From: a virus
Virus record (IMG/VR): IMGVR_UViG_3300045241_000012
Span: 1 to 38,074 of that record
Length of the DNA stretch: 38,074 nucleotides
Strand: one strand, 5' to 3'
Shown here: positions 2,925-31,945 of the stretch, piece after piece
Layout of the letters: each line of letters starts with the position of its first letter
Position numbering within the stretch: position 1 is the stretch's first letter
The notes under the pieces: generated by a model
What the model saw: only the letters and a program-made list of their open reading frames with translations
The model's database searches: none
What the model was told of the DNA's origin: nothing
Made by a program: the position numbers and the translations under genes

Positions 2925-3365
2925 TCAGATTTCCGTTTCCCATAGAACCTTCTGAATGGTCGGAGCCTTATCAACCCGTGGACGATTGATGCGACTCCAG
3001 CTTCCGCCTTTGGTCCTCATCACTTCTTTGAAACCTGCGCCGCGAAGTGATGCACCGCCTTCTTCAGCGAGCGTGTATGTGATAAGCCTGCGATATCCTA
3101 GGGCAAAGGTTGCGCGGCGGCAGGCGCCTAACAGGAAGGATGAAGCGTTGTGGGTGCCATCAGTGCAAAGCCTATTCAATTCAAGCGTCCAGCCGTCATC
3201 GAAATGGCGCGAGACTGGACGCCCACACATTGCGACGCCAACGACATGATCACCGTCGTTGGCAGCAATTCCGAATTTCCAGCCGATTGACGGTATGTGG
3301 TGCCGATGATGCAAGCGGATGAATGTTGCCGCCTCTTCGAAGCTGATTGGTTGAAGCTCGAGCAT
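2925..3365 (-). CDS. XF1762-type GNAT-like protein
   Basis: A 146-residue protein with the hallmarks of the phage XF1762 family: HHRHHIPSIGWKFGIA near residue 19, GVAMCGRPVSRHFDDG near 43, LELNRLCTDGTHNASS near 61, GYRRLITYTLAEEGGASL near 90, and SWSR-R-R-DKAP towards the end. The fold is generally regarded as acetyltransferase-like (GNAT). It has been compared with the Mu Mom DNA-modification enzyme, but no biochemical role can be read here. It sits between attP and a strong terminator, convergent with the integrase, as a lone accessory gene. The ribosome site is weak (AAGG, 7 nt from ATG). Confidence 0.75.
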   Translation of the reverse strand: MLELQPISFEEAATFIRLHHRHHIPSIGWKFGIAANDGDHVVGVAMCGRPVSRHFDDGWTLELNRLCTDGTHNASSFLLGACRRATFALGYRRLITYTLAEEGGASLRGAGFKEVMRTKGGSWSRINRPRVDKAPTIQKVLWETEI

Positions 3366-16739: not shown

Positions 16740-17327
16740 TCATGGAACGAGTGTTGTGAATTGCCCAATCTGATCGGTTGGTGGACGGCTGAATACCGGC
16801 CTCGAATCGAAGCGAAAGTTCACCTTCGTCAAATCACGTCGATTAACCGCGAAGGTAAACGCCGTGTTGTTGATTGCCTTATAGATCATTGCGTAGCCGT
16901 ACTTCGGGCTCGCCGGGTTATCCATATGCCTGAACACCATAAGCAGGGACGTTGGCCCGAGCTCCGGCTTAGTGGCTGAGCCGAAGGTGACAAGATTCTG
17001 CCCTGCCTGGAAAAGAGCAGGCGGCATCAGGATCCGCATCTTATCGAGATCAAGCACCTGCACAAGCGTCCCTTCCATCGACATCTGATTAGCCTGATAG
17101 ACGCGATAAGGCTCCTGCTGATCCCACGCTTCCTCAGGCGGTGCTTGCCATCCGATCGTCAGCGTGCAGCCGCGATCCGTATAGCCCAGAGGCCGGCCAT
17201 CGGGCGGGAATCCGTTGGCATCAAGCACTAGCTGCGTGTTAGCGGCAGGCAGCGTGACGTTCCACCAGAGGCCGACATTCGGCCCGATGATGATCTGCGT
17301 CTCGTTGTAATCGACGGCTGATGACAT
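16740..17327 (-). CDS. major tail (tube) protein paralogue 2
   Basis: A 195-residue beta-rich protein. It shares with its upstream neighbour G-T-L-V-Q-V near residue 85, a following M/L-L-P segment, I-Y-K-A-I-N near 155, R-D-L-T-K-V-N-F and a final D-Q-I-G-Q. These are in the same order in both, so the two arose by duplication. It lies directly before the gpG-like chaperone gene, the normal place of the tail tube gene. Which copy builds the tube cannot be told from sequence. Confidence 0.72.
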   Translation of the reverse strand: MSSAVDYNETQIIIGPNVGLWWNVTLPAANTQLVLDANGFPPDGRPLGYTDRGCTLTIGWQAPPEEAWDQQEPYRVYQANQMSMEGTLVQVLDLDKMRILMPPALFQAGQNLVTFGSATKPELGPTSLLMVFRHMDNPASPKYGYAMIYKAINNTAFTFAVNRRDLTKVNFRFDSRPVFSRPPTDQIGQFTTLVP

Positions 17328-17945
17328 CTAGGGCTCGAGCCACACCTGACCGAGTTGATCGCCTGCCTCACGCGTGCCGATGGCGTTGGCGCTGAAGGTG
17401 AAGGCAGTCTCCGAGGGATTCTGGCGGGTGATCGCCATGATAAATTCCTGCGTGTTGAGCGCCTTATAGATCATCACGGCAACGATCTTTCCTGGCGTTG
17501 CGCGGTTCTGCCCGACGACAAGCACGCTCGGATAAGCAGTGGCTGGCCACGAGGTCAGACCGCCGACGTGATAGGAATCGGGCGTCTTGAAGTTGTAATT
17601 CGGCAGCATCGCAAGCAGTGCCTCTTTCTCAGCGACCTGGACGAGCGTTCCCTGGATTGACACCGTCTCCTGCGTCGGGTTGTAGAAGATGGGTGAGCGC
17701 ACCTCATCAACCTCATAGCCGGTGAGCGTCATCGCTGAGTGATAGGTCGTTCCACTCTTCGTATAGCCCGCGAGAAACCCTGTGCCAGTTGGAATGCCGC
17801 CTGTGAGAATCGTTGACAAAGATGCGCCGTCCGCCGGAATCGGCACGTTGAAGTACATCTTGCCCGGTCCGACGACGAGCTTTACAGGATCGTATGCGCC
17901 TGTTCCTGTGAATACCGTCGTGCCTGGTCCTGGTGTTCCTGCCAT
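17328..17945 (-). CDS. major tail (tube) protein paralogue 1
   Basis: A 205-residue beta-rich protein with the landmarks G-T-L-V-Q-V near 97, M-I-Y-K-A-L-N near 158, R-Q-N-P-S-E-T-A-F-T-F and D-Q-L-G-Q at the end, each matched in the adjacent paralogue. The N terminus is Gly/Thr-rich (PGPGTTVFTGTG). A ribosome site AAGGAGG lies 5-6 nt upstream, stronger than for copy 2, which begins immediately at this gene's stop. That may indicate copy 1 is made in larger amounts and is the main tube subunit (inference). Confidence 0.72.
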   Translation of the reverse strand: MAGTPGPGTTVFTGTGAYDPVKLVVGPGKMYFNVPIPADGASLSTILTGGIPTGTGFLAGYTKSGTTYHSAMTLTGYEVDEVRSPIFYNPTQETVSIQGTLVQVAEKEALLAMLPNYNFKTPDSYHVGGLTSWPATAYPSVLVVGQNRATPGKIVAVMIYKALNTQEFIMAITRQNPSETAFTFSANAIGTREAGDQLGQVWLEP

Positions 17946-18959: not shown

Positions 18960-19355
18960 TCAACTGAACGTGAAGTTGACCGAAGCGCTTACCTGCCCAT
19001 AGTCATCGCGAACGACAACCGGCACGGCACCCGCAGCAGCGCCGCGAATATTCGCTTCCATCGAGGTTGCCGATTTGAGCGCAGCCCCGTCCATCAGGAC
19101 ACCGCCCGCCGTGACTACGCAGTTACTGGAGAAGCCCGTGCCGGTAAGCGTGACCTTTAGACCTGACGCCGCAATGGCCGCGGTTGATGGTGTAAGCGTG
19201 GTCAGCGTGGGCGCTGCTGGTTTGTGCGCAACAGGGACAGCCGATACCGGCACCTGGGCGCTATATGGATAAGCAATGTATGTTCTTGCGGCGTCGCTCG
19301 AGTCCACAACCGAGCCGTCCGCCTTGTACCAATATTCGTGCGTGTTATAGGGCAT
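18960..19355 (-). CDS. Ig-like IPT/TIG-domain virion protein
   Basis: A 131-residue protein. Residues about 45-131 form an IPT/TIG immunoglobulin-like fold: P-T-L-T-T-L-T-P-S-T-A-A-I, then L-T-G-T-G-F-S-S-N-C-V-V, ending V-V-V-R-D-D-Y-G-Q-V-S-A-S-V-N-F. The N-terminal 40 residues include N-T-H-E-Y-W-Y-K-A-D-G. Such domains decorate phage heads and tails and may hold weakly to cell-surface sugars. It lies inside the head-tail connector block, so a surface ornament of the neck or head is likely. Role inferred. Confidence 0.7.
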   Translation of the reverse strand: MPYNTHEYWYKADGSVVDSSDAARTYIAYPYSAQVPVSAVPVAHKPAAPTLTTLTPSTAAIAASGLKVTLTGTGFSSNCVVTAGGVLMDGAALKSATSMEANIRGAAAGAVPVVVRDDYGQVSASVNFTFS

Positions 19356-19827: not shown

Positions 19828-20310
19828 TCATGAGACCTTCGTTGGCTCCCAGTCGCGTGCCATCTGGCGGCAATGCGTAAATAGCTGCTGCGAGGCAAGT
19901 GACTGACCCGCACTCGAGTTCTGCACCAGCGGCGCTGACTTGCCGGCTTTCAACAGCCACGCATCGGAGGTCGCCTGATCGAGATCGAAGAATCCTCTCT
20001 CCAACCCCGCCTCTAACCAGGTCACCGTCCCATCGGTTGTCGTCGTCCCGAAGAATTGATTCCACGCCGGCTCAGTCGAGCCGCTCGTGCCTGCGACGCT
20101 GCACTGATAGAGATGGCCATTCGGCACTGTTGGAATGACCGTTGCACCCTGCCCGTAGACGGTGTCGGGCTGCCAGGTCGAGCCGACTTGCGAGTCACGG
20201 ATGACGCCCTCGAGCTCGGCTGTTGAGAGCTCAGGCGGATCACAGGCACAGGCTTGCACCGCGACGATCTCAACGGCTTTTTGGAAGGCTTCGGATTCAG
20301 TCATTGACAT
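19828..20310 (-). CDS. head-tail connector with chitin-binding-like WxP insert
   Basis: A 160-residue protein. The outer parts (E-A-F-Q-K-A-V-E-I-V-A-V-Q-A-C at the start and D-W-E-P-T-K at the end) are helical, like gp6-type connectors. The middle (about 45-100) has the aromatic pattern W-x4-Y-x5-V...Y-x-C...G-T-S-G-x3-P-x-W...D-G-x-V-T-W, a carbohydrate-binding-like module often seen in phage structural proteins. The ATG overlaps the preceding stop by 14 nt. Confidence 0.6.
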   Translation of the reverse strand: MSMTESEAFQKAVEIVAVQACACDPPELSTAELEGVIRDSQVGSTWQPDTVYGQGATVIPTVPNGHLYQCSVAGTSGSTEPAWNQFFGTTTTDGTVTWLEAGLERGFFDLDQATSDAWLLKAGKSAPLVQNSSAGQSLASQQLFTHCRQMARDWEPTKVS

Positions 20311-20571: not shown

Positions 20572-21849
20572 TTACGCGAAGGGAACTTTCGCGAATGCGC
20601 CAGGCCGTGTGACTGCAAGCGTGCCACGCAGTTCACAGACGATGGTTGTGATGTTGCGGATGAGGTCGTCGTTCTTGAGGCCAACGATGAAGGTCACGCC
20701 CATGCGCTGGTAGAACGTCGCGTAGCTGAAATCACCAACGAGGGCGAAGCCGGCAGGCATATGCGAGTCCGAGACAACCGGCAGGCCGTAGATATTCGGC
20801 GTACCCATCTCGGTCGGTGATCCCCAAAGGTAGAAGGAGGCGGGCGGTGTGCCGATCTTCGATGTACGAACTGCCCACCAGTCAGCAGGATTCATGACTA
20901 CCGCATTGGGAACGCCATAGCCGGTGGAACTGACGGCAGCGATACCCTTCGCGATCATGTCGGCGGGTGATGTGGCGGCGACAAAGGTGGGGGTCTGAAT
21001 GCCCGCGAAGTTCAAAATCCCGCGTATCTGCGGAGTCGTGCCGTTACCGTTGAGAATGGAATCATCGAGCTTGTTGAGCAGCGCGCGACGAAGATCAAAG
21101 TCGATAACCGACCTGAGCTGCGGCAGATCATCAAGAGCCTGAAGGGTAACAGCAGTCCACTCGGCAAGCGTCTCGACCGGAGCATCAACCGGCGCCCAAC
21201 GTAATTGAATCTCAGGCTTGAGTGCCGCTTCAGCTGTCCAGTCAGGGCCGCCCGTTGGCGGCATGGTCGCCTGGTAATATCGGATGCTCCCGGCGCCGAC
21301 ATTGACGACGTTAATCAGCGGCAAGACTGTCGCAGGCGGAAAGACGTGCGGCACGAGTGCCAGTTCAGTCACTCGAGTGCCGAACTGCGTAGTGGTAATG
21401 GGGTCGCCGGCGGCTTTGACGCTAAGGCCGATGGCGTCATCGATCGTCACGCTGTAGGCCGTACCGCTGTGGTGGCCCTGATCGTGAACGGCCTTGTAGA
21501 TGGCCGATTCGATGAGGCTGGTAGACCAGGACTTATTGCTCGAGACAAGCGCAGTCTCCTGACGCTCGGCATCAAGGTTGCGGCCATTGTTGTTGGCAAG
21601 CGCAAGACCGGGACGCGTAACAGGCTTCAGGGATTTTGCCCGCTCGGCCTCATCGGCAGACTTGCGAGCTTCATTCGCATCATCGACGCTCTTGAGCTTC
21701 AGGTATTCAGTTTCGGCGACGGTGATCTCGTCATTGAGCTTGACGGCAGCTTCGAGCTCTTCGGTGGACGGTGATTCGATGGCAAATAGTTTATCGAGAT
21801 CGGCCCGCATCGTTCTGACCTTCTCGCCCGCTCCAGTAGCGATTGGCAT
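20572..21849 (-). CDS. major capsid protein, HK97 fold, with N-terminal delta domain
   Basis: A 425-residue protein immediately after the protease gene, the canonical position. Residues about 5-75 form the coiled-coil delta domain that is removed as the head matures (V-R-T-M-R-A-D-L-D-K-L...E-A-E-R-A-K). The rest is the HK97 fold, with A-A-G-D-P-I-T near 160, T-L-Q-A-L-D-D near 235, N-G-N-G-T-T-P near 262, G-Y-G-V-P-N-A-V-V-M-N-P near 300 and N-D-D-L-I-R-N-I-T-T-I-V near 393. The AAAGGAG site is 5 nt from the ATG. It is homologous to the gene at 23310-24248. Confidence 0.93.
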   Translation of the reverse strand: MPIATGAGEKVRTMRADLDKLFAIESPSTEELEAAVKLNDEITVAETEYLKLKSVDDANEARKSADEAERAKSLKPVTRPGLALANNNGRNLDAERQETALVSSNKSWSTSLIESAIYKAVHDQGHHSGTAYSVTIDDAIGLSVKAAGDPITTTQFGTRVTELALVPHVFPPATVLPLINVVNVGAGSIRYYQATMPPTGGPDWTAEAALKPEIQLRWAPVDAPVETLAEWTAVTLQALDDLPQLRSVIDFDLRRALLNKLDDSILNGNGTTPQIRGILNFAGIQTPTFVAATSPADMIAKGIAAVSSTGYGVPNAVVMNPADWWAVRTSKIGTPPASFYLWGSPTEMGTPNIYGLPVVSDSHMPAGFALVGDFSYATFYQRMGVTFIVGLKNDDLIRNITTIVCELRGTLAVTRPGAFAKVPFA

Positions 21850-21860
21850 GTATGCTCCTT

Positions 21861-22421
21861 TCAGGCCCGGTTGCGGGCGAGTTGCAGTAATTGAAGGCGG
21901 CGCATGGCGATGCGTCGCGATTCGAGTTGAGGGTCGGATTGCTTAATGGCGCTGACCTGCGCCTGGGGATTTGCCGGGACAGTCACAACGCTCGCTTCCA
22001 TGACGTCTATCTCTTCGAGGTAGCGAACGCCGTTGCGCTTCTCAGCAGACTTCACCCGGTAGCCAATGCTCATGCCCTGCTTGCGGCCTCGTGCCTGCTT
22101 CTCAGCAAGGCGCTGGCGCACCTGTTGGGCATCAGGGGTTGAATAGAACTCAGCAACAATGAAGAGCCCGCGATCGTCTTCTTTGGCGTCAACGATCGTG
22201 CCGAGCTCTTCTTTCCAGTTATGGCCGTTGCAGAGAAAGCCGGATGCCTTGAAGTCTTCGAGTGAGCGGGCAAACGCACCGGGCACGATGACCTCATTGG
22301 CGCGATCGACATTGCCAAAGGCGGCGGCGTAGCCTTCGAGGATGCCAGGGCCATCACCTGATGCGACTTTCAGCTCGAGCTCACAGTCTTTGTATTCAAT
22401 CTCGTGATTTTCGTTGGGCAT
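21861..22421 (-). CDS. HK97-family prohead protease
   Basis: A 186-residue serine protease that cleaves the capsid delta domain. It has the family order: I-L-E-G-Y-A-A-A-F-G-N-V-D near 27, P-G-A-F near 46, the catalytic His in L-C-N-G-H-N near 65, K-Q-G-M-S-I-G-Y with the catalytic Ser near 116, and M-E-A-S-V-V-T-V-P-A-N-P near 140. I chose the ATG at 22421; a TTG start at 22466 would put a perfect hairpin inside the coding part. No Shine-Dalgarno site is visible; instead a strong hairpin lies 10 nt upstream. Confidence 0.92.
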   Translation of the reverse strand: MPNENHEIEYKDCELELKVASGDGPGILEGYAAAFGNVDRANEVIVPGAFARSLEDFKASGFLCNGHNWKEELGTIVDAKEDDRGLFIVAEFYSTPDAQQVRQRLAEKQARGRKQGMSIGYRVKSAEKRNGVRYLEEIDVMEASVVTVPANPQAQVSAIKQSDPQLESRRIAMRRLQLLQLARNRA

Positions 22422-22431
22422 AAAAGCGAAA

Positions 22432-22463
22432 GCGCCGCAACCCTTGGGAAAGAGTTGCGGCGC
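22432..22463 (-). promoter_or_regulatory. hairpin directly upstream of the protease start
   Basis: On the minus strand GCGCCGCAAC, a 12-nt loop and GTTGCGGCGC form a perfect 10-bp stem. It is followed by TTTCGCTTTT and then the protease ATG. The shape is that of a weak intrinsic terminator or attenuator, and it may also limit ribosome loading on the protease gene. Confidence 0.65.
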
Positions 22464-22520
22464 CAATCTCCGATTGAGACCCTCGCGGGGATCTCGGCCA
22501 CGTTGTAGAGCAGCGATGTT

Positions 22521-22718
22521 CTACGCCTTGATTAACACAATATCTTGTGGTTTGTCCAGCTTGCGCGAGTCCTTGGCGTAGGTGGTCATGCGCGAACAAT
22601 CGTCACAGCGCACGCGCAAATAGGTATTCAGCAAGCGCACTTCGGCAAGCTGACGGCCGCACCACGAACACCTTACTGTTTCAGGCTGCTGCGCCTTCTG
22701 CTGTACCACTGATTCCAT
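22521..22718 (-). CDS. Com-like zinc-finger protein
   Basis: A 65-residue protein with T-V-R-C-S-W-C-G-R-Q-L-A near residue 15 and V-R-C-D-D-C-S-R-M near 36: two CxxC pairs separated as in Mu Com, the zinc-finger translational activator of mom. The ATG at 22718 overlaps the MuF-like gene by 38 nt. A GTG three codons later (22709) has GAGG 9 nt upstream and may be the true start. Com-like genes occur in head operons of several phages. Whether it acts on the XF1762-type gene elsewhere in this genome is speculation. Confidence 0.65.
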   Translation of the reverse strand: MESVVQQKAQQPETVRCSWCGRQLAEVRLLNTYLRVRCDDCSRMTTYAKDSRKLDKPQDIVLIKA

Positions 22719-23310
22719 CCTCGAAGACAATCTCGCACCGGCATCTCGAGCCGCATTGACTCGCACCTATCGGCGGCACCTGCTCGATCGGATAGACGCC
22801 GGCGAGATCGGGGCAGTCCGTGCAATGCTCGGCACCGGGATCAAGCACGCGCCTCACATACTGGCGCCCGTTATCGCTCTCACGCAGAACTGTGTGATTC
22901 GAATAAGAGGCGTAAAGCGATTCCTGGTACATACCCGCACGGTTGACCGTTTCAGCCGGCGTGACCTTGCCACTAATGAGGTCAGTTGCAAATCGCATCA
23001 GATAGCCGAGTTGCCTGCCGATGAAACTACCGACTCGCTGTAGGCGGGTCGCTGTCAGCGCCTCAGTGCCTCCGTAGGCTGCTGCGGCCATGGCCCCCTG
23101 ACCCAATCTGATCTCGGACTGCATTGCCATCTGAAAGTCACGGCCACTCATCAATCGGGCATTCAATAGCTCAGCCAAACGCTCAGTGCGACGGCTCGCA
23201 TTATCGACAGTCTCATTGATCCAGCGACGAAGCGTATCCGAGCGCACGGCCCTGCCCGTAGCCTTGTCGATGAATCGCTGCCGTGATTTTGACCAGGCGA
23301 ACTTCGGCAT
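22681..23310 (-). CDS. MuF-like minor head protein
   Basis: A 209-residue protein in the normal place for a MuF-type minor capsid protein, two genes before the protease. The C-terminal part has the conserved cysteine cluster: R-R-V-L-D-P-G-A-E-H-C-T-D-C-P-D-L-A-G near 155, then P-P-I-G-A-S-Q-C-G-S-R-C-R-C-E at about 179-193. The N-terminal two-thirds is helical. MuF-type proteins sit inside the head near the portal and are often ejected. It overlaps the stop of the capsid-like gene by 1 nt. Confidence 0.82.
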   Translation of the reverse strand: MPKFAWSKSRQRFIDKATGRAVRSDTLRRWINETVDNASRRTERLAELLNARLMSGRDFQMAMQSEIRLGQGAMAAAAYGGTEALTATRLQRVGSFIGRQLGYLMRFATDLISGKVTPAETVNRAGMYQESLYASYSNHTVLRESDNGRQYVRRVLDPGAEHCTDCPDLAGVYPIEQVPPIGASQCGSRCRCEIVFEDGISGTAEGAAA

Positions 23311-24248
23311 CAGGTAAGCGTCACCTTGTTGAGTGCAAGCGGCTGCACGACATAGAACGCGAGGCGGCTTTCACCGACGATGGTGACGATATTCTTGATG
23401 ATATCGTCGTTGACGTGGCCGATGATGATGGTCGCATCCTGCCTGCGATAGATGACGCAGCCGTTAACCAGATCACCGACAATGCCGGTATTGGCCGGCA
23501 CCGCATTCGAGTAATAGACCGGGACGCCGTAAAGCACCTCAGTCGCGCGAAACGGGTCGTAGCCGTAAGCGTAGCTTGGCGCTGCCGCTGTAATGGCCGA
23601 AGCCGCATTCGCAGGATTGAGCAGGATGGCATTCGGCGTATAGCCTGCGCCCCTGACAGCTGCGAGTCCTGCCTGGATGCTTGCCGCGCTCGCAATGGCT
23701 GCCGCCGGCGAAAGCATGCCGAATAGATTCGGCGACGTTCCATTGCCCGCGATAACCTGCGCCTCTTCGCCCTTGATGACAGCAACTCGCAGGCGGTTCG
23801 TGATGTCGTAGCCCGCCTGACGCGAATCATCTAGTGCCTGAGTTGTCACCTTGATCCACGCGGCAATGGTCTGCACCGGGACGAGAATGACACTTGCGTA
23901 ATCCAGGGCAAGCGCGGTTTTTACATCAGCAGTCAGCGTGGGCACGGCCAGCCCGAAGGCCGTTTCGCGCGTGATGTTAATGGTCGTCGCGTTTGTCGGC
24001 ACTTCAGTAATCAAATTGAGAAATGTGGCGAGCTGGCCGCGGGTGGACATGTAGCCGCCCTCATTGCTCACCATCGTGATCGGATCGCCCGCCGCTTTCC
24101 AGTTGAACGGCACATTGAGATTCACCGAGTACCTGTCACCGACGCGGTGATGATCACGCGCCAGGTATTCTTTGCTCGCAATGAAATGCTCACCGAGGGT
24201 GTGCGGGCGGGTGACTTCTTCGAGCTCATAACGTGTTGCTACGGTCAT
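23310..24248 (-). CDS. second HK97-fold capsid protein, no delta domain
   Basis: A 312-residue paralogue of the major capsid protein. It shares the same landmarks in the same order: A-A-G-D-P-I-T near 53, V-T-T-Q-A-L-D-D near 142, G-N-G-T-S-P near 170, G-L-A-A-V-R-G-A-G-Y-T-P-N-A-I-L-L-N-P near 193-211, Y-G-V-P-V near 234, and N-D-D-I-I-K-N-I-V-T-I-V-G-E near 280. It lacks the N-terminal coiled-coil delta domain. It has a strong AAGGAG site and lies between portal and MuF genes, an unusual location. Both copies look intact, so a mixed capsid, a vertex protein or an alternative head are possible. Confidence 0.88.
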   Translation of the reverse strand: MTVATRYELEEVTRPHTLGEHFIASKEYLARDHHRVGDRYSVNLNVPFNWKAAGDPITMVSNEGGYMSTRGQLATFLNLITEVPTNATTINITRETAFGLAVPTLTADVKTALALDYASVILVPVQTIAAWIKVTTQALDDSRQAGYDITNRLRVAVIKGEEAQVIAGNGTSPNLFGMLSPAAAIASAASIQAGLAAVRGAGYTPNAILLNPANAASAITAAAPSYAYGYDPFRATEVLYGVPVYYSNAVPANTGIVGDLVNGCVIYRRQDATIIIGHVNDDIIKNIVTIVGESRLAFYVVQPLALNKVTLT

Positions 24249-24439
24249 GACGTTCTCCTTTTAGGCTTGCCTTCCTTGGCCGCCTTCTCACGTAGTGCAT
24301 CCGCCAGGTGGATCAGGTCATCGCGCGACTGGGGGCTGATGAAATCAAGAAACGCGCGCCGCTCTGCCGGTTTCGCCCGACCAAACGCATCCAGAAAGTC
24401 CGTGAAGAGGGCAATGACTTGTGAGGCGTTGTCAGGCAT
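24245..24439 (-). CDS. small helical protein between portal and capsid genes
   Basis: A 64-residue protein, predicted as two helices (SQVIALFTDFLDAFGRAKP and RAFLDFISPQSRDDLIHLAD) with a basic end (KEGKPKRRTS). It overlaps the capsid-like gene by 4 nt (ATGA), so the two are translationally coupled. No family recognised. A scaffold or a small portal/capsid accessory is suggested by position only. Confidence 0.68.
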   Translation of the reverse strand: MPDNASQVIALFTDFLDAFGRAKPAERRAFLDFISPQSRDDLIHLADALREKAAKEGKPKRRTS

Positions 24440-24447
24440 AGATTCCT

Positions 24448-25917
24448 TCAGGCGACCTGCTCGGCATCAAGTAATCCTTTGGCATCAGGCGGCGCCGTCT
24501 CGTCCCACCAGGCCGCTATCTCATCGAGATTGTGCGGTAACGGGAGCATGCCGACATCCTTCTTCGATGCATCCTGAGTAGCCATCGCGGCAGCTCCAGA
24601 ATCGGCGGGGAATAGCCCCGGCGCCATCGACGCTTGGCCAGCCGGCATCGGCTGAATGAAGTACACCTCGTCTTCAGGCTCCGTCTCAAGGCCAAGCGCT
24701 GAGCGGCACTCAGAGCGCTTCTTGATGCCCGACTTGTAGGCCAATGATTCGCGCGTGAAGAGCTCATTGCGGTCAGGCTGAAGCGCCTGCACCGCCGAGC
24801 GATCGAAGATCACCCGATACGTGTCGTCCTCAACGCCTGGCCACGTGCCCTTATCGGTAATGATGGTCTCGTAGAGCAACTGATCGCTGAGTACGGCCGT
24901 GATGTAGTCCTGCGTCGGGATCACGAAGTTGGTCCACGCCTGTTCCTGCGCGGCCTTGAGGTTCGAGTAGATGCTACGTTCGAGTCCGACTTCGAACCCC
25001 AGCACGATTGCAGGAACCCCAAGGACAGCGCAGACTCGAGACTCAGGACGGCGAGATACCTTTTCGACGGCCATCTGATCAGGCGAGAAGCCGAATGCGG
25101 TGATGTCCATCGGCTTATTGAATACCAGAGGCTTCCCACGTAAAGCCCCGGATGTGCGCTTCTGGATATCGGCATCCATATCCGGCGCGCTCATCTTGTA
25201 GATGCCATCCGATGTGGGTTTTGGGGCAACGAGAAACGCGGGTATGCCGAAGTTCTGCATGATCTGGGTGCTGTAGATGGACACTTCCTGATCAACGGCA
25301 ACCTCGTACATAAGCGAGCGCACTGGCGCAAGCCCTAGCAGTGGCCTGTTGGGATCGATGCCGTAACGCAGATGGATGATGTCTTCGTAAGGAATAATCC
25401 CAGGCAGTCCCTGACCCGAATATCGGTAGTAGATCGTTCGCTCGTTGTTATCGGGTTCTATCGTCCATTCAGGGATAACGGCACGCGAATCGAGCAGCCA
25501 GAGCTCAACCACTGCGCCCTGGTCATTGCGAGCCTTGTAGAAAAAGACGTTGCCGTAGACGAGCCACCAGTAGGCAAATGCTTTCCAGTAGGTGATGCCC
25601 GAATAGTAGGGATTCGGATCAGCGATCAACTCGACCAGGGGATGATCAGGTATCGGCTCCCATGTCTTGACGTCCTTCTGCTGGACTACCTGCATCGGTG
25701 CGCTTGGAATCGTGGTACCTGCCCAATTGACGCAGGCCATGACAAGCGAGCTCATCGTCAGATCAGACGAACCCTCGAGCGGCACAAACGGGCACTGATC
25801 GGGCCAGGAAGGGAAGAAGCCAGTCGCATAAGGATGGCCCGCACTTGCACTGCCGCCGCCGACGAAGCCACTCCAACCGGCCGCTACTGCCTCCTTGACT
25901 CTCGTGATCAGATTCAT
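24448..25917 (-). CDS. portal protein (HK97/SPP1-type)
   Basis: A 489-residue portal protein. The pattern is that of the phage portal family: M-A-C-V-N-W-A-G-T-T-I-P-S-A-P near 60, V-Y-G-N-V-F-F-Y-K near 113, P-Y-E-D-I-I-H-L-R-Y-G near 177, L-G-V-P-A-I-V-L-G-F near 293 and the E-x2-Y-S-N segment near 312. The portal is the twelve-subunit ring through which DNA is packaged. It overlaps the terminase gene by 4 nt (ATGA). The last 60 residues are acidic and Ala-rich. Confidence 0.94.
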   Translation of the reverse strand: MNLITRVKEAVAAGWSGFVGGGSASAGHPYATGFFPSWPDQCPFVPLEGSSDLTMSSLVMACVNWAGTTIPSAPMQVVQQKDVKTWEPIPDHPLVELIADPNPYYSGITYWKAFAYWWLVYGNVFFYKARNDQGAVVELWLLDSRAVIPEWTIEPDNNERTIYYRYSGQGLPGIIPYEDIIHLRYGIDPNRPLLGLAPVRSLMYEVAVDQEVSIYSTQIMQNFGIPAFLVAPKPTSDGIYKMSAPDMDADIQKRTSGALRGKPLVFNKPMDITAFGFSPDQMAVEKVSRRPESRVCAVLGVPAIVLGFEVGLERSIYSNLKAAQEQAWTNFVIPTQDYITAVLSDQLLYETIITDKGTWPGVEDDTYRVIFDRSAVQALQPDRNELFTRESLAYKSGIKKRSECRSALGLETEPEDEVYFIQPMPAGQASMAPGLFPADSGAAAMATQDASKKDVGMLPLPHNLDEIAAWWDETAPPDAKGLLDAEQVA

Positions 25918-27143
25918 ATCAACCTCAACGGCTCAACGAGCGCCATCCTGAGAGCAAGCGCCCGCGCTATCACAGTGTCATCGTGGCTGCCCGATGGCGC
26001 TGAATACTGTGGCCTGCCTGTATGCGTCGATAGCGTCGCTTCGTATGCCTCGAGCTCACCCCGGGCAACAGGATCAGGCAGCCACTGCGCCTCAGCCTTT
26101 TCGAATGCCAGTGCGAGCGATTGAATCATCTGCGGCTTGGTTGCTGCCGTTGTCATAAAGCCTTGGACGTCTAAGCCGGCACTGAGCAGCGCCTCGAGAT
26201 TCGGTGAGCCTATGGAATTCATCTCGACAAGTAACTCGGCATTCCATAAATCAGCCGTTACCTTGATGCGGTCGCGCTGCTGTTGCCAGGGCAAGCGGAA
26301 GAAGCGATCAAGGGCGACCTCGGTGCGGCAATCAGCACACAGGAGGGACAGTGCTGTTGCATCCTGAATCTGGCCCCAATCGAGGCCGCCGACGATGCGA
26401 TGCCCTTCGTGATCACACGGTTTTGCGTCAGACAAGGCTGTCAGACAGGCATCGATGTTCCTAAACACCGTGCCTTCGTGCTCGATGAACTCAGCCAGCC
26501 ATTCCTGGCGATAGGTCTGGTCAGATACCAGGTCCTTCGCCATCACAGCAGCCCGCTGAATGCGCTCATTGGGATTGGCGCTCGATGGTGCGCGCCAGCT
26601 CTTATGCGTCTCGCTTTCGGGATCGAGACCGCGCAGATATTCGCGATGGAACCAGTTCTGACCCTTCGGTGTGCTGATGAGAATTGCCTTGCCTGAGAAA
26701 TCGGCAAGCGTCGGTTGAATAGCATCGGTCCAGGCGGCTTCTGCGATCATTGCGGCCTCATCGAGGATGGCAAGATGAAAGGCCTCCCCACGAATCGAGT
26801 CGGGGTTATCCATGGAGTAGATCGCGATACCACCGCCGCGTGGAAATTCGATAGTTCGATCAGCACGATTGATTGTAAGGCCATGCTTTCTGAGTGGTGC
26901 CAGCGCTCTTTCCACCTGGCGCCAGAGGGGCCGGCCGTTGCCGTAATTCGGAACAATCCAGGCAACCCGTAGGTCATCTCGAGCCGCCGTTACGGCGAGT
27001 ACCGCCCCGAGAACCGTTTTGCCCCACCGTCTCCCGGCTGCGATTATCTGTATCTGTGCCGGATGGCGTGCTATCGCGAACTGGTCCGGGCGCAAAGCCG
27101 GCAATTGAATCTCTAGTGGCGACCATGAGGGGGTTTTCCGCAT
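25914..27143 (-). CDS. terL: terminase large subunit
   Basis: A 409-residue packaging motor. Walker A is A-A-G-R-R-W-G-K-T (residues 35-43); Walker B is L-A-I-L-D-E-A-A-M near 130; S-T-P-K-G follows as the coupling motif. The nuclease domain begins G-G-L-D-W-G near 249. I take the ATG at 27143 (MRKTPSWSPLEIQ); an upstream reading to 27257 gives a basic, shadow-like N terminus. Even so, it overlaps the small subunit gene by 170 nt. Confidence 0.93.
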   Translation of the reverse strand: MRKTPSWSPLEIQLPALRPDQFAIARHPAQIQIIAAGRRWGKTVLGAVLAVTAARDDLRVAWIVPNYGNGRPLWRQVERALAPLRKHGLTINRADRTIEFPRGGGIAIYSMDNPDSIRGEAFHLAILDEAAMIAEAAWTDAIQPTLADFSGKAILISTPKGQNWFHREYLRGLDPESETHKSWRAPSSANPNERIQRAAVMAKDLVSDQTYRQEWLAEFIEHEGTVFRNIDACLTALSDAKPCDHEGHRIVGGLDWGQIQDATALSLLCADCRTEVALDRFFRLPWQQQRDRIKVTADLWNAELLVEMNSIGSPNLEALLSAGLDVQGFMTTAATKPQMIQSLALAFEKAEAQWLPDPVARGELEAYEATLSTHTGRPQYSAPSGSHDDTVIARALALRMALVEPLRLI

Positions 27144-27435
27144 CGCCTGAGAGCGTGAGATGGTCGGAAAAACCGGACCTTGTCTTTTCGTACCAGATGA
27201 TTGCTGTAACATTCTTTTCTCGGCAGAGTTCGAAGAGCGCGTTGGAGACCACTGCAATCGCTCTCGATTTGCCCTTCTTTAAAGCAGTCTGGAACGCCTC
27301 ATCCTCGGCCTTGCGGCGATAGAACGTCCGCATGCCAATGCCGATCGATTCGTATATCTGCTTCTCGGTGAGTCCGAGACCCGAAAGGCGTTCGACTTCA
27401 GCGAGGTCAATCTCATTCAATTTACGCCCGGCCAT
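26974..27435 (-). CDS. terS: terminase small subunit
   Basis: A 153-residue protein. Residues 8-60 are a helix-turn-helix region: I-D-L-A-E-V-E-R-L-S-G-L-G-L-T-E-K-Q-I, then M-R-T-F-Y-R-R-K, and T-A-I-I-W-Y-E-K-T-R-S-G-F, which is typical of small terminase subunits. These normally end near here (about residue 100). The last ~55 residues, Gly/Arg/Thr-rich, lie over the terL start in another frame and look like a read-through tail. The overlap of 170 nt with terL is unusually long. Confidence 0.85.
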   Translation of the reverse strand: MAGRKLNEIDLAEVERLSGLGLTEKQIYESIGIGMRTFYRRKAEDEAFQTALKKGKSRAIAVVSNALFELCREKNVTAIIWYEKTRSGFSDHLTLSGDAENPLMVATRDSIAGFAPGPVRDSTPSGTDTDNRSRETVGQNGSRGGTRRNGGSR

Positions 27436-28255: not shown

Positions 28256-29797
28256 TCAGAAACCAGTCGGATGAAAGGTGACGCCGCTCGCTCCAGCAAT
28301 CACTATTGCTATTGAAGCGCCACCACCGCTACCCGCCGAGATATTGATATACCTGATGATCCCGTTGGCTCTATTACTGGGATCGTTGAAGTGGTTGACG
28401 GGATTCCACCAGGCACCAGCTCCGTGATCGGTTTCGAAATCGACGTGGCAATCAAAGCGCATTCGGCAAGCTGAGGCATCAATGCTCTTCGGACATTGAA
28501 CAATGAGAAGGTCGCCTACGATCGGGTAGTTCGCGTCCAGGCCTGCGTGACCTTGCACTCCAACCCCGCACCGCTGAATCCAGGTTCCCGTTGTGTGCCA
28601 AAGCTCGTCACCGATAACGCCGATCCCATAATTGGAGACTGTGAGATTCCTGGTTAAGACCTGTGAGCAGGCATTGACCTGAGGAAGGCGCACCGCATAA
28701 GTCGCGTGCGTTGGCTGCGAGCCTCCCGGTGTTATTCCGCCAAAGATTAGATCGCCCTGAGCAGACATCCCGGTATCGAAGGAGACATTGCTCAAGAAGC
28801 AATTGTTCTGAATGCCAAGGTCAAGTCCATTGATGCTGGGATTATCGTAGGTTCTGAAGGTGACGCCTTCAATGGCGACATTCGAGTGATTGATGCCGGA
28901 TAGACCCGCACTGTAGTCGCCGCTCGCAAGAATTGATGCGGTCGTATCAACTTTGTCACTCTGAATGATAACTGCGCCCGACTCCTGCGGCATATCAGCA
29001 CCAGGTATGACCGGCACGTTATAGCCAATGATGCGATAGCACTCAGACCGGAAATTCCCCGGTATCTCTGGTGGGCGTGGGAAGTGAAGAAGCGCGCCGT
29101 ATAGCCCCTTCGGCCCGTTCACGCGATAGAAGCCTGGCTCCATAATCAGCGTTGCCCCGCCCTGAAGGGCATCGAGCCCAGATTGAAGGGCAACCGTATC
29201 ATCGTGCTGAACGTTGGTAGACGCGCGAGTCGCCCCAGCTGCAACGTGCAGCGTGACGGTGTTACCCGAAACGGCGTCAACCTTTGTCAGCAGGTCGACG
29301 CCAGATGCACCCGCCGTGACCAATATCCCCTGCCCAACTGCGAAGTCATTCACTGAGCCAGCCGCGAGGGTCAGCGTTGTCGAGCCTGCATTGACTGCAC
29401 CTGTGAATTTAGTCTTTGAGCCGGATGCTCCAAACGATGATGCCAGGTATTGACCATCAATGAGTCCGCTGCCGCTTCCTGCGTGTGAATCGACGTAACC
29501 CTTGGTCGCCGCCTGGAGTGCGCTTGACGAGATCGTGGGATGACCTGCGAGCGTAAGCGATCCGGTCATCGTATCGCCGTGCTTGTTGAGCGGGACGTAG
29601 CCGAGTGCCGCAAGAACGTCATCCTCGAGCAGGACGACCTCACCAGTGCGCGTGTTGAAGCTGGTGACGGGCACTACAGCGCCTCCTGAAAAGAGAACGA
29701 AGGCGTCCGTGGAAAGGTAGCCGTCCTGGGTACGCGATGCATTCGGGATCGAGAGTCTCGAGCCATCCCATTCAAGCGGTAATAGAACATCGGCCAT
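28256..29797 (-). CDS. tail spike with pectate-lyase-like beta-helix
   Basis: A 513-residue protein. Residues about 1-50 hold a fibre module with R-L-S-I-P-N-A-S-R-T-Q-D-G-Y-L-S; 60-100 resemble a G-D-T-M-T-G-S-L-T-L fibre repeat; from about 195 a beta-helix starts at D-D-T-V-A-L-Q-S-G-L-D-A-L and M-E-P-G-F-Y-R-V. The same D-D-T-A/V-A-L-Q and P-G-F/Y-Y-R pair begins the helix of the 1793-residue fibre. It is a probable receptor-binding spike; polysaccharide cleavage is possible. It has no ribosome site and likely depends on coupling to the gene before it. Confidence 0.8.
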   Translation of the reverse strand: MADVLLPLEWDGSRLSIPNASRTQDGYLSTDAFVLFSGGAVVPVTSFNTRTGEVVLLEDDVLAALGYVPLNKHGDTMTGSLTLAGHPTISSSALQAATKGYVDSHAGSGSGLIDGQYLASSFGASGSKTKFTGAVNAGSTTLTLAAGSVNDFAVGQGILVTAGASGVDLLTKVDAVSGNTVTLHVAAGATRASTNVQHDDTVALQSGLDALQGGATLIMEPGFYRVNGPKGLYGALLHFPRPPEIPGNFRSECYRIIGYNVPVIPGADMPQESGAVIIQSDKVDTTASILASGDYSAGLSGINHSNVAIEGVTFRTYDNPSINGLDLGIQNNCFLSNVSFDTGMSAQGDLIFGGITPGGSQPTHATYAVRLPQVNACSQVLTRNLTVSNYGIGVIGDELWHTTGTWIQRCGVGVQGHAGLDANYPIVGDLLIVQCPKSIDASACRMRFDCHVDFETDHGAGAWWNPVNHFNDPSNRANGIIRYINISAGSGGGASIAIVIAGASGVTFHPTGF

Positions 29798-30064: not shown

Positions 30065-31945
30065 TTAGGTCCAGCTACTGAAGGGCAGTCCCGCACCACC
30101 AGCATAGAGCGCGGTTCTCTCACCCGCGGTAAGTATGCGGCCTTTCCAGAAAGCAGCCTCATCAACGAGGCCGGTCGCCAGTTGAATATCCCCGGCATAG
30201 CATCCAAAGAAAACATCGGCAGCGTCACTTGTACCGAGTGGCGGCACAGGCGTGAAGGTATCGACGGGGCCATCGTTGACCTGGATGTTAATCGAGTTCG
30301 CCGCGTTATTGTGCCAGAAGACGATGAAGTACCACTGACCCGTTGCAGGTGAGCCGAGACTGTCTGCATTAAGTGTCGAGTAGGTTGAGCCGCCTCGAAC
30401 AAAGGAGCTGATGCGGTCTCCTGAGATCGTATAACCGACGCCATACTCATCAGCGCCCCCACCCGTCTTGCTCCAGAACTTCTGCTCTGTCGCCTTACTG
30501 TCAAGGTTGACCCATAGCGCCATCGTGTAATCAATCGGGCCTGTCTGGAGGCTTGTATTGCTTGTGGCTAGCAGATGATCTGCTGAGCTTGTGAAATGAG
30601 CGGCGTTGGAGATTTTCCCGGTGCCCGATCCTATGGCGCTAACAGGGACGAGATCGTTATGGTGAGCCGCAGGAGCGAAATCGAGACGCGCGGTTGAGGT
30701 GCCCGTCTCATCCATCTTCCACATCGAGATGAGACCCGTCAGCAGATCAGGCGGCGGCGCCGCTGTCGTGAATGTGCCAGTCACGGGGATTGCGGGATTG
30801 CCTGCTGCGTCCTTCGACTTCACCTGGTAGTGATAGAACTGACTCCCCACGAGGCCTGTCAGCGAAACTGCATGAGTCGTGACACCAGCAGTGGAAACAG
30901 GCGTGTTGGTAATCGGCGGCACGGTTGCCGTGCCATAGCTCGTATCGACGCTGTACCTGACCTCAGAGTCGGCGTTTTCGCTGGTCGTCCAGTTGATTAT
31001 TGCGGAGGTTTCCAAAATCGCTGTCACCGGCGGCACTGCAAGCGTGATAACGGGCGGCGTCGTGTCAGCGACCGCACCTGTCGTGAAAGTGTTATCCGGT
31101 GAGACCCGAAGAAGCGTGGCGGTATTCCGCGACTTCACGACGTAGTGATAACCCTGCGATGCGATCAGGCTGCTAATCGTGACACTATGGCTTTGCGTGA
31201 GCGTTGGATCGATGGTCGTCGATGTGCCGTAGCTCATGTCGGTGCTGTAAGCAACCTGCGAATCACTGAGGTCATCCGTGGTCCAGGTAATCGTGACGCT
31301 TGTCCCGGTGACTGTTGCCAGGATAGCGGTGATGTTCGGCGCAGTCGTATCAGCTGTCGCCGTGATCGCAACGATCTGGCCATACGCATTGATGCTGATG
31401 CGTGTCGGATTCAACCAGTCGCCGGCAACGCCTGAGATGGGCTGCATGCCGATGGTCCCGCTATCGGTGATCGGCCCACCAGTGAGTCCTGCGCCAGTGT
31501 TGATCTGAGTTACGCCCATGTCCGAGCCTCCTGCCTCGAAGGCTGCGAAGTCTGCCGCTGAAAGATAGCCATCCTGCGTTGCCGACGCCTTTGGAATCGA
31601 AAGCACATCACCCACGTAGACAAGCGGAGGCTCGACCAGCGTGCTTGCCGGCAGCGAGAAGTCGGGCACGAGCTCGCCCGATGGACCTGGCGGCACGGTG
31701 AATGCGCGGCCATCGGGGCAGTTCCAGAGAGCCGAGGCGCGAGCGGAGATGAAAGCAGTTCCGAGCTCTGGCAGGGTGAAGTGGAACGCACCGGCTGAAT
31801 CGGTGAGTGTAGTTTTCGGCCCAAGCAGAATGGGGTTTCCGCTCGCATCAAGGACTCTTTTGAGAACAACGAGCACATCAGGCGCAGGATCGCCGGCCTG
31901 ATCGTAGATGTAGGCGAAGGCATCGCATTGAGCGAGAGCAGCCAT
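30065..31945 (-). CDS. tail fibre with two fibronectin III domains and LamG-like end
   Basis: A 626-residue modular fibre. Residues about 8-110 form a carboxypeptidase-regulatory-like beta domain (Y-I-Y-D-Q-A-G-D-P-A-P-D-V-L-V). About 110-160 carry the fibre module L-S-I-P-K-A-S-A-T-Q-D-G-Y-L-S and N-T-G-A-G-L-T-G-G. Two fibronectin III domains follow (about 200-290 and 295-395, each with I-T-W-T-T/I-N-W-T-T and Y-H-Y-x-V-K-S-K/R). A concanavalin/LamG-like domain is last (about 405-626, L-I-S-M-W-K-M-D-E). It is the first gene of the late operon. No ribosome site precedes ATG 31945. Confidence 0.85.
   Translation of the reverse strand: MAALAQCDAFAYIYDQAGDPAPDVLVVLKRVLDASGNPILLGPKTTLTDSAGAFHFTLPELGTAFISARASALWNCPDGRAFTVPPGPSGELVPDFSLPASTLVEPPLVYVGDVLSIPKASATQDGYLSAADFAAFEAGGSDMGVTQINTGAGLTGGPITDSGTIGMQPISGVAGDWLNPTRISINAYGQIVAITATADTTAPNITAILATVTGTSVTITWTTDDLSDSQVAYSTDMSYGTSTTIDPTLTQSHSVTISSLIASQGYHYVVKSRNTATLLRVSPDNTFTTGAVADTTPPVITLAVPPVTAILETSAIINWTTSENADSEVRYSVDTSYGTATVPPITNTPVSTAGVTTHAVSLTGLVGSQFYHYQVKSKDAAGNPAIPVTGTFTTAAPPPDLLTGLISMWKMDETGTSTARLDFAPAAHHNDLVPVSAIGSGTGKISNAAHFTSSADHLLATSNTSLQTGPIDYTMALWVNLDSKATEQKFWSKTGGGADEYGVGYTISGDRISSFVRGGSTYSTLNADSLGSPATGQWYFIVFWHNNAANSINIQVNDGPVDTFTPVPPLGTSDAADVFFGCYAGDIQLATGLVDEAAFWKGRILTAGERTALYAGGAGLPFSSWT

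Follow-up and report, generated by a model that had tools for sequence, protein, structure and literature searches.

What does a phage of the HK97 type do with a second shell gene, when in such phages a single polypeptide, with a scaffold of its own, usually makes hexons and pentons alike? The question is raised by a viral DNA of 38,074 nucleotides, the IMG/VR record IMGVR_UViG_3300045241_000012, the whole of which we call the window. An earlier note, made from the letters of the window, had described two proteins of the HK97 capsid fold in its head operon and had offered a two-protein shell, a special vertex or a decoration evolved from capsid as explanations. We refer to them as MCP1 and MCP2 (MCP for major capsid protein). 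Our analysis shows MCP2 to be a maintained capsid paralogue without a scaffold domain, which probably co-assembles with MCP1 into the shell. The two genes are:

20572..21849, minus strand: MCP1, major capsid protein with an N-terminal delta scaffold domain, 425 residues (Pfam, predicted fold)
23310..24248, minus strand: MCP2, second HK97-fold capsid protein, 312 residues, without a delta domain (homology, Pfam, predicted fold)

Homology, fold and crosslinking residues

Both open reading frames (ORFs) are open where the earlier note had placed them. BLASTP aligns MCP1 and MCP2 with 35% identity over 333 columns (E 6e-33), both match phrog_10 ('major head protein'), and the Pfam family PF05065 (Phage_capsid, cutoff 24.2 bits) matches MCP1 with 108.5 bits and MCP2 with 65; together with the predicted folds, these values rule out a chance likeness. 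The sequence landmarks that had first suggested the relationship do occur in both proteins in the order given, except that TQALDD has to be shortened: MCP1 reads TLQALDD and MCP2 TTQALDD, so that only QALDD is common. The motif KAAGDPI is found in MCP2, MCP1 and their sisters.

The model of MCP2, made from an alignment of 38 sequences (mean predicted local distance difference test score 74.4, predicted template modelling score 0.71), has the HK97 fold, so that the claim survived what could have refuted it, a different fold for the 312-residue protein. Its nearest structures are D3 prohead I (9osb; Z 22.5, root-mean-square deviation 2.6 over 247) and HK97 prohead I (8fqk; Z 21.8, deviation 2.9 over 249), entries that the MCP1 model matches with Z 25.1 and 25.3. 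Encapsulins, which share the HK97 fold and have no delta domain, appear among the structural matches of MCP2 at Z 15-17, below the phage proheads at Z 22. They suggest that MCP2 might form a particle of its own, similar to an encapsulin, or act elsewhere than in the virion shell, but MCP2 lies inside the head operon, retains the crosslinking residues described below and matches no encapsulin model (MCP1 reaches 51 bits against the encapsulin model NF041188, whose cutoff is 180). We consider such a role improbable.

The MCP1 model opens with two long helices at residues 3-22 and 29-73, as expected of a delta scaffold; the linker after them (74-104) is predicted with low confidence. The MCP2 model has no such region, in agreement with the earlier claim that only the first protein has a delta domain, and MCP2 begins at the N-arm region that follows the MCP1 delta linker, approximately at the start of mature MCP1.

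In HK97, the residues Lys169, Asn356 and Glu363 form the crosslinks. They align with K211, N399 and E406 of MCP1 and with K110, N286 and E293 of MCP2, and this Lys-Asn-Glu (KNE) triad is present in all eight MCP1 and all seven MCP2 sequences. Among 88 aligned proteins the triad is all-or-none: either all three residues are KNE, or Y, F or S is found with G and mostly D. The triad residues of the window phage may form crosslinks too. A capsid-derived decoration protein on the outside of the MCP1 shell, the last of the earlier explanations, would be one of many accessory head proteins, which are common. This explanation has lost ground, since the shell fold is complete in MCP2, the residues for crosslinking between subunits are retained, and a separate decoration-like gene lies at 19828-20310; we regard it as very improbable.

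Conservation and origin of the second gene

Every one of the five related contigs that cover the region has MCP2 in the same place; the window makes a sixth case. In these IMG/VR contigs (L003, L005, L006, L007 and L014) MCP2 is 77-100% and MCP1 84-94% identical to the window, with unchanged gene order; of the other relatives, L004 ends before MCP1, and L010 and L011 begin after MCP2. MCP2 is retained even in L003, L006 and L014, where the neighbouring 209-residue protein is swapped for a 36-38% variant. The ratio of nonsynonymous to synonymous substitution rates (dN/dS) is 0.006-0.17 for MCP2 over seven sequences, all intact, compared with 0.03-0.13 for MCP1 and 0.03-0.11 for the portal protein. 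The Shine-Dalgarno strength of MCP2 is -8.7 kcal/mol (MCP1 -7.9, portal -5.1, 209-residue protein -4.1), and therefore MCP2 looks well translated. Two-capsid arrangements are rare, and the MCP2 gene is 5'-truncated relative to MCP1, as might be expected of a non-functional duplicate or relic, but the selection values, the intact gene in every sequence, its tight packing between the neighbouring genes and the strong ribosome-binding site effectively refute this explanation, to which we give hardly any credence. That the phage has two capsid genes, and that evolution has kept both, is well established.

A second delta-less paralogue, which we call MCPx, was found in contig L128 (37.7 kb). This protein of 309 residues is encoded between the genes for the terminase large subunit (TerL) and the portal, packed against both, and L128 also has a normal MCP1 of 432 residues downstream. 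MCPx scores 75.8 bits against PF05065. Its identity is 41% with MCP1 of L128, 40% with MCP1 of the window and 29% with MCP2; it starts in the N-arm where MCP2 does, likewise without the delta domain that MCP1 has. The order TerL-MCPx-portal is repeated in L133, which is 87% identical to L128 in DNA, and the dN/dS of MCPx is 0.067.

In the free tree, MCPx falls within the MCP1 group, and MCP2 branches outside that group. A recent duplication of MCP1 within the window clade is disfavored by the position of MCP2 outside MCP1 and its sisters (85/87 and 91/94). The approximately unbiased test of a grouping of MCP1 with MCP2 is borderline (p 0.045 and 0.09), and the test does not reject a single origin of MCP2 and MCPx (p 0.21); long branches limit both the tree and these tests. 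Taken with the different gene sites, the tree suggests two independent origins. In L006, the MCP2 gene has the same ribosome-binding site, but about 47 additional codons precede the shared N-arm; the N-terminus that they encode contains NLDFERMMTQLL, like the post-delta linker of MCP1 in contig L034 (NLDYERQMKLL). The best score over ten targets was reached by 27 of 3000 shuffles, which is modest evidence that this N-terminus is a possible remnant of the delta junction.

L034 (39.1 kb) is a close sister with a single capsid gene; its portal, protease and MCP1 are 60%, 75% and 57% identical to those of the window. L035-L047 also have one capsid gene (MCP1 42-48% identical). In all of these the portal gene is followed by the homologue of the 209-residue protein, although further small genes or a methyltransferase gene intervene in some. 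In a Pfam search of 73 related viral records, two capsid genes were seen solely in the window-clade records G002, G003, G004 and G006 and in G001 (L128); G069 holds one capsid gene split by the record ends and is no pair. Of 50,697 phage records, MCP1 matched 971 and MCPx 613, each record at one place, so that no matched record contained a second match. In Sinorhizobium Aussie and StopSmel, the nearest isolated phages, a single capsid gene is annotated. Two scans by pattern of 84,980 species genomes from bacteria and archaea found no relative, a plasmid search gave only weak, ordinary capsid matches, and a final viral scan gave no additional two-capsid contig. In the literature that we covered, which takes in few subscription journals, no delta-type phage is described as having a second capsid gene of the HK97 fold.

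Possible roles of MCP2 in the head

The explanation that we favor, and to which we give about an even chance as a whole, is that a full-length HK97-type capsid gene was copied and that the copy lost the 5' part encoding the delta scaffold, leaving MCP2. The protein would then be made in a 'born mature' form and would join the delta-bearing MCP1 during assembly. Hexamers of MCP1 would carry the delta domains for nucleation around the portal and for scaffolding of the procapsid, while MCP2 would most likely supply the pentamers at the 11 non-portal vertices, where a delta domain is least needed. After the protease had removed the delta domains of MCP1 and the head had expanded, MCP2 would enter the covalent Lys-Asn chainmail through Lys110, Asn286 and Glu293. 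In HK97 prohead I, the 30 delta domains of the five portal-adjacent hexons contact the portal, and those of the pentons have no substantial interaction (PMC10275583); a delta-less subunit should therefore be tolerated best at the pentons. Incorporation into the virion, crosslinking and the pentamer position are inferences of ours, for the last of which T4 gp24 and Ccm of SaPIbov5 (below) serve as analogies; the pentamer position, taken alone, has in our judgment a little less than an even chance. Of the earlier explanations, the two-protein shell or special vertex has gained indirect support from the conservation of MCP2, its purifying selection, the kept triad and the case of L128 and L133.

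Several observations weigh against this explanation. The ribosome-binding site of MCP2 is as strong as that of MCP1, seemingly beyond the need of about 55 penton copies. Sister phages of similar genome size manage without MCP2. The A domain is not where MCP1 and MCP2 have chiefly diverged: identity is 35% there, 40-50% in parts of P and 29% in the E-loop. MCPx keeps K and N but has Ser instead of Glu, and the persistence of the triad could reflect a general constraint of the fold.

Some of these points would suit a mixed shell without fixed places, in which MCP2 takes variable hexamer or pentamer positions and tunes the stability or the internal scaffold density of the procapsid. The matching strength of the two ribosome-binding sites and the retention of every crosslinking residue fit such a shell, and the two-component encapsulin of Streptomyces lydicus offers a model of variable composition and irregular tiling (PMC12407261). 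However, the natural two-capsid phage systems described in the papers covered (T4, and phi12 with Ccm) segregate their proteins by symmetry, and identity has fallen to about 30% in the N-arm and E-loop, through which subunits touch inside a capsomer and across capsomers. We think a mixed shell unlikely, though worth keeping in view.

MCP2 could also regulate assembly, biasing the size or shape of the head as Ccm does, or protect the phage from rival phages and from satellites that steal capsids, with or without a lasting place in the phage's own mature head. Ccm, itself a capsid homologue, redirects the assembly of phi12, and the varied accessory genes that relatives carry between the portal and the 209-residue gene mean that MCP2 may be accessory cargo. 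Yet MCP2 belongs to a complete phage genome and is kept by every clade member seen, and genomes with MCP2 or MCPx (about 38-39 kb; the window and L005, and L128) resemble in size one without (L034), so that no obvious change of head volume is seen. This makes a regulator rather improbable.

Returning to the pentamer explanation, it would extend, if MCPx is included, to the more general and quite tentative idea that HK97-type phages have more than once made a copied capsid gene into a scaffold-free shell subunit, with MCP2 after the portal gene and MCPx before it. The head would then be composed of scaffolded hexons and unscaffolded pentons in one covalent chainmail.

Head operon, genome and known systems

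Because an exact repeat of 127 bp is found at its two ends, the window represents a complete genome of about 37.95 kb. It encodes an integrase and is that of a complete temperate phage with terminase, portal, protease and MCP1. The genes are transcribed in the order terminase small subunit (TerS), TerL, portal, a 64-residue ORF, MCP2, the 209-residue protein, a small CxxC protein, the S78 protease and MCP1, followed by head completion and tail genes. The features other than the two capsid genes are:

26974..27435, minus strand: terminase small subunit (phrog_309, E 2.9e-15)
25914..27257, minus strand: terminase large subunit (phrog_2, E 2.2e-32)
24448..25917, minus strand: portal protein (Pfam PF04860, E 2.9e-45)
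24245..24439, minus strand: 64-residue ORF in the portal-MCP2 interval, carrying the MCP2 ribosome-binding site (conserved in the clade)
22681..23310, minus strand: 209-residue head-operon protein, 'MuF' of the earlier note (phrog_24776, function unknown)
22521..22766, minus strand: small CxxC protein, 'Com' of the earlier note (zinc-protein matches below threshold only)
21861..22466, minus strand: prohead serine protease, Peptidase S78 (PF04586, E 2.5e-26)
19828..20310, minus strand: decoration-like protein, distinct from MCP2 (phrog_20658)

The start of MCP2 overlaps the stop of the 64-residue ORF by 4 nucleotides (ATGA), and MCP2 overlaps the next gene by one base. The position of MCP2, described earlier as lying between portal and MuF, is indeed unusual, with the qualification that the 64-residue ORF also intervenes; the MuF label could not be confirmed, since the 209-residue protein has no Pfam match and its sole match is the phrog family listed. 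Two alternative forms of that protein, with about 36-38% likeness, replace each other among close relatives, one in L003, L006 and L014 and the other in the window, L004, L005 and L007, and the flanking genes stay similar. A homologue of the 64-residue ORF lies upstream of TerL in the one-capsid sister L034 (1083-1244), for which reason the ORF may have moved together with MCP2. A 131-residue protein with an immunoglobulin-like IPT/TIG domain is encoded downstream of MCP1 in the window (18960-19355, minus strand) and between the 64-residue ORF and MCP2 in L007 (1269-1661); it is a relocating gene, possibly of the decoration type. Methyltransferase genes lie between the portal gene and the 209-residue homologue in L038 (4483-5208), L042 (2677-3408) and L128 (3485-4573), the family search having been made on the L128 gene only. 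The portal/209-residue junction, which in the window is the site of MCP2, looks like a hotspot for accessory genes.

At the usual position of the tail-tube gene there are tandem paralogues of 205 and 195 residues (17328-17945 and 16740-17327, minus strand; 28% identity, E 1e-18) with no family or PDB match. The pair is also present in L005, L010 and L011, and L034 and L128/L135 have a single copy; the window clade has thus doubled both the shell gene and the putative tube gene. Two large proteins encoded upstream of the terminase genes (28256-29797 and 30065-31945, minus strand) have related stretches in common and vary strongly between relatives, a fibre-like pattern, and neither has a PHROG match. 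A Mom-like DNA modification protein (2925-3365, minus strand; phrog_1384, E 1.6e-32) is encoded far from the Com-like CxxC protein of the head operon.

Among known systems, phage T4 resembles the window phage in having two homologous HK97-fold shell proteins, gp23 in the hexamers and gp24 in the pentamers, the second with a short propeptide where MCP2 has none. The T4 protein gp24 is a paralogue of gp23 with a propeptide of 10 residues compared with 65 (PMC9958956). T4 differs in its prolate head, its separate scaffold core and the identity of only about 20% between gp24 and gp23; in the window phage the scaffold is part of MCP1, as its delta domain, which MCP2 lacks, the triad is present in both proteins, and MCP2 is a putative penton protein. 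The satellite SaPIbov5 encodes Ccm, which is 24% identical to the phi12 capsid protein and fills the pentamers while the phage protein makes the hexamers (PMC8569155). It is likewise a capsid homologue, one that co-assembles with a delta-type HK97-like capsid protein; unlike MCP2, a phage gene product without delta, Ccm is encoded by a satellite, alters the size of the head and carries a delta domain that is cleaved off (residues 1-87). A satellite origin of this type is ruled out for the window, a complete phage genome with its own head module. HK97 gp5 and the D3 capsid protein share the fold, the aligned Lys-Asn-Glu positions and an operon with an S78-type protease and portal, but there one protein makes both hexamers and pentamers. 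Two HK97-fold proteins also co-assemble in the mixed shell of the Family 2B encapsulin of Streptomyces lydicus (PMC12407261), which, in contrast to a phage head, is a cellular compartment without portal, DNA packaging or maturation protease. What is new relative to T4 gp24 and Ccm is the pairing, in a delta-type phage, of a shell subunit that carries a scaffold with a probable shell subunit that does not. Such a natural pair, with the close one-capsid sister L034 and its head operon of the same type as a natural comparison, would open to direct study which subunits need a scaffold, how five-fold and six-fold positions are chosen and how a one-protein shell becomes a two-protein shell.

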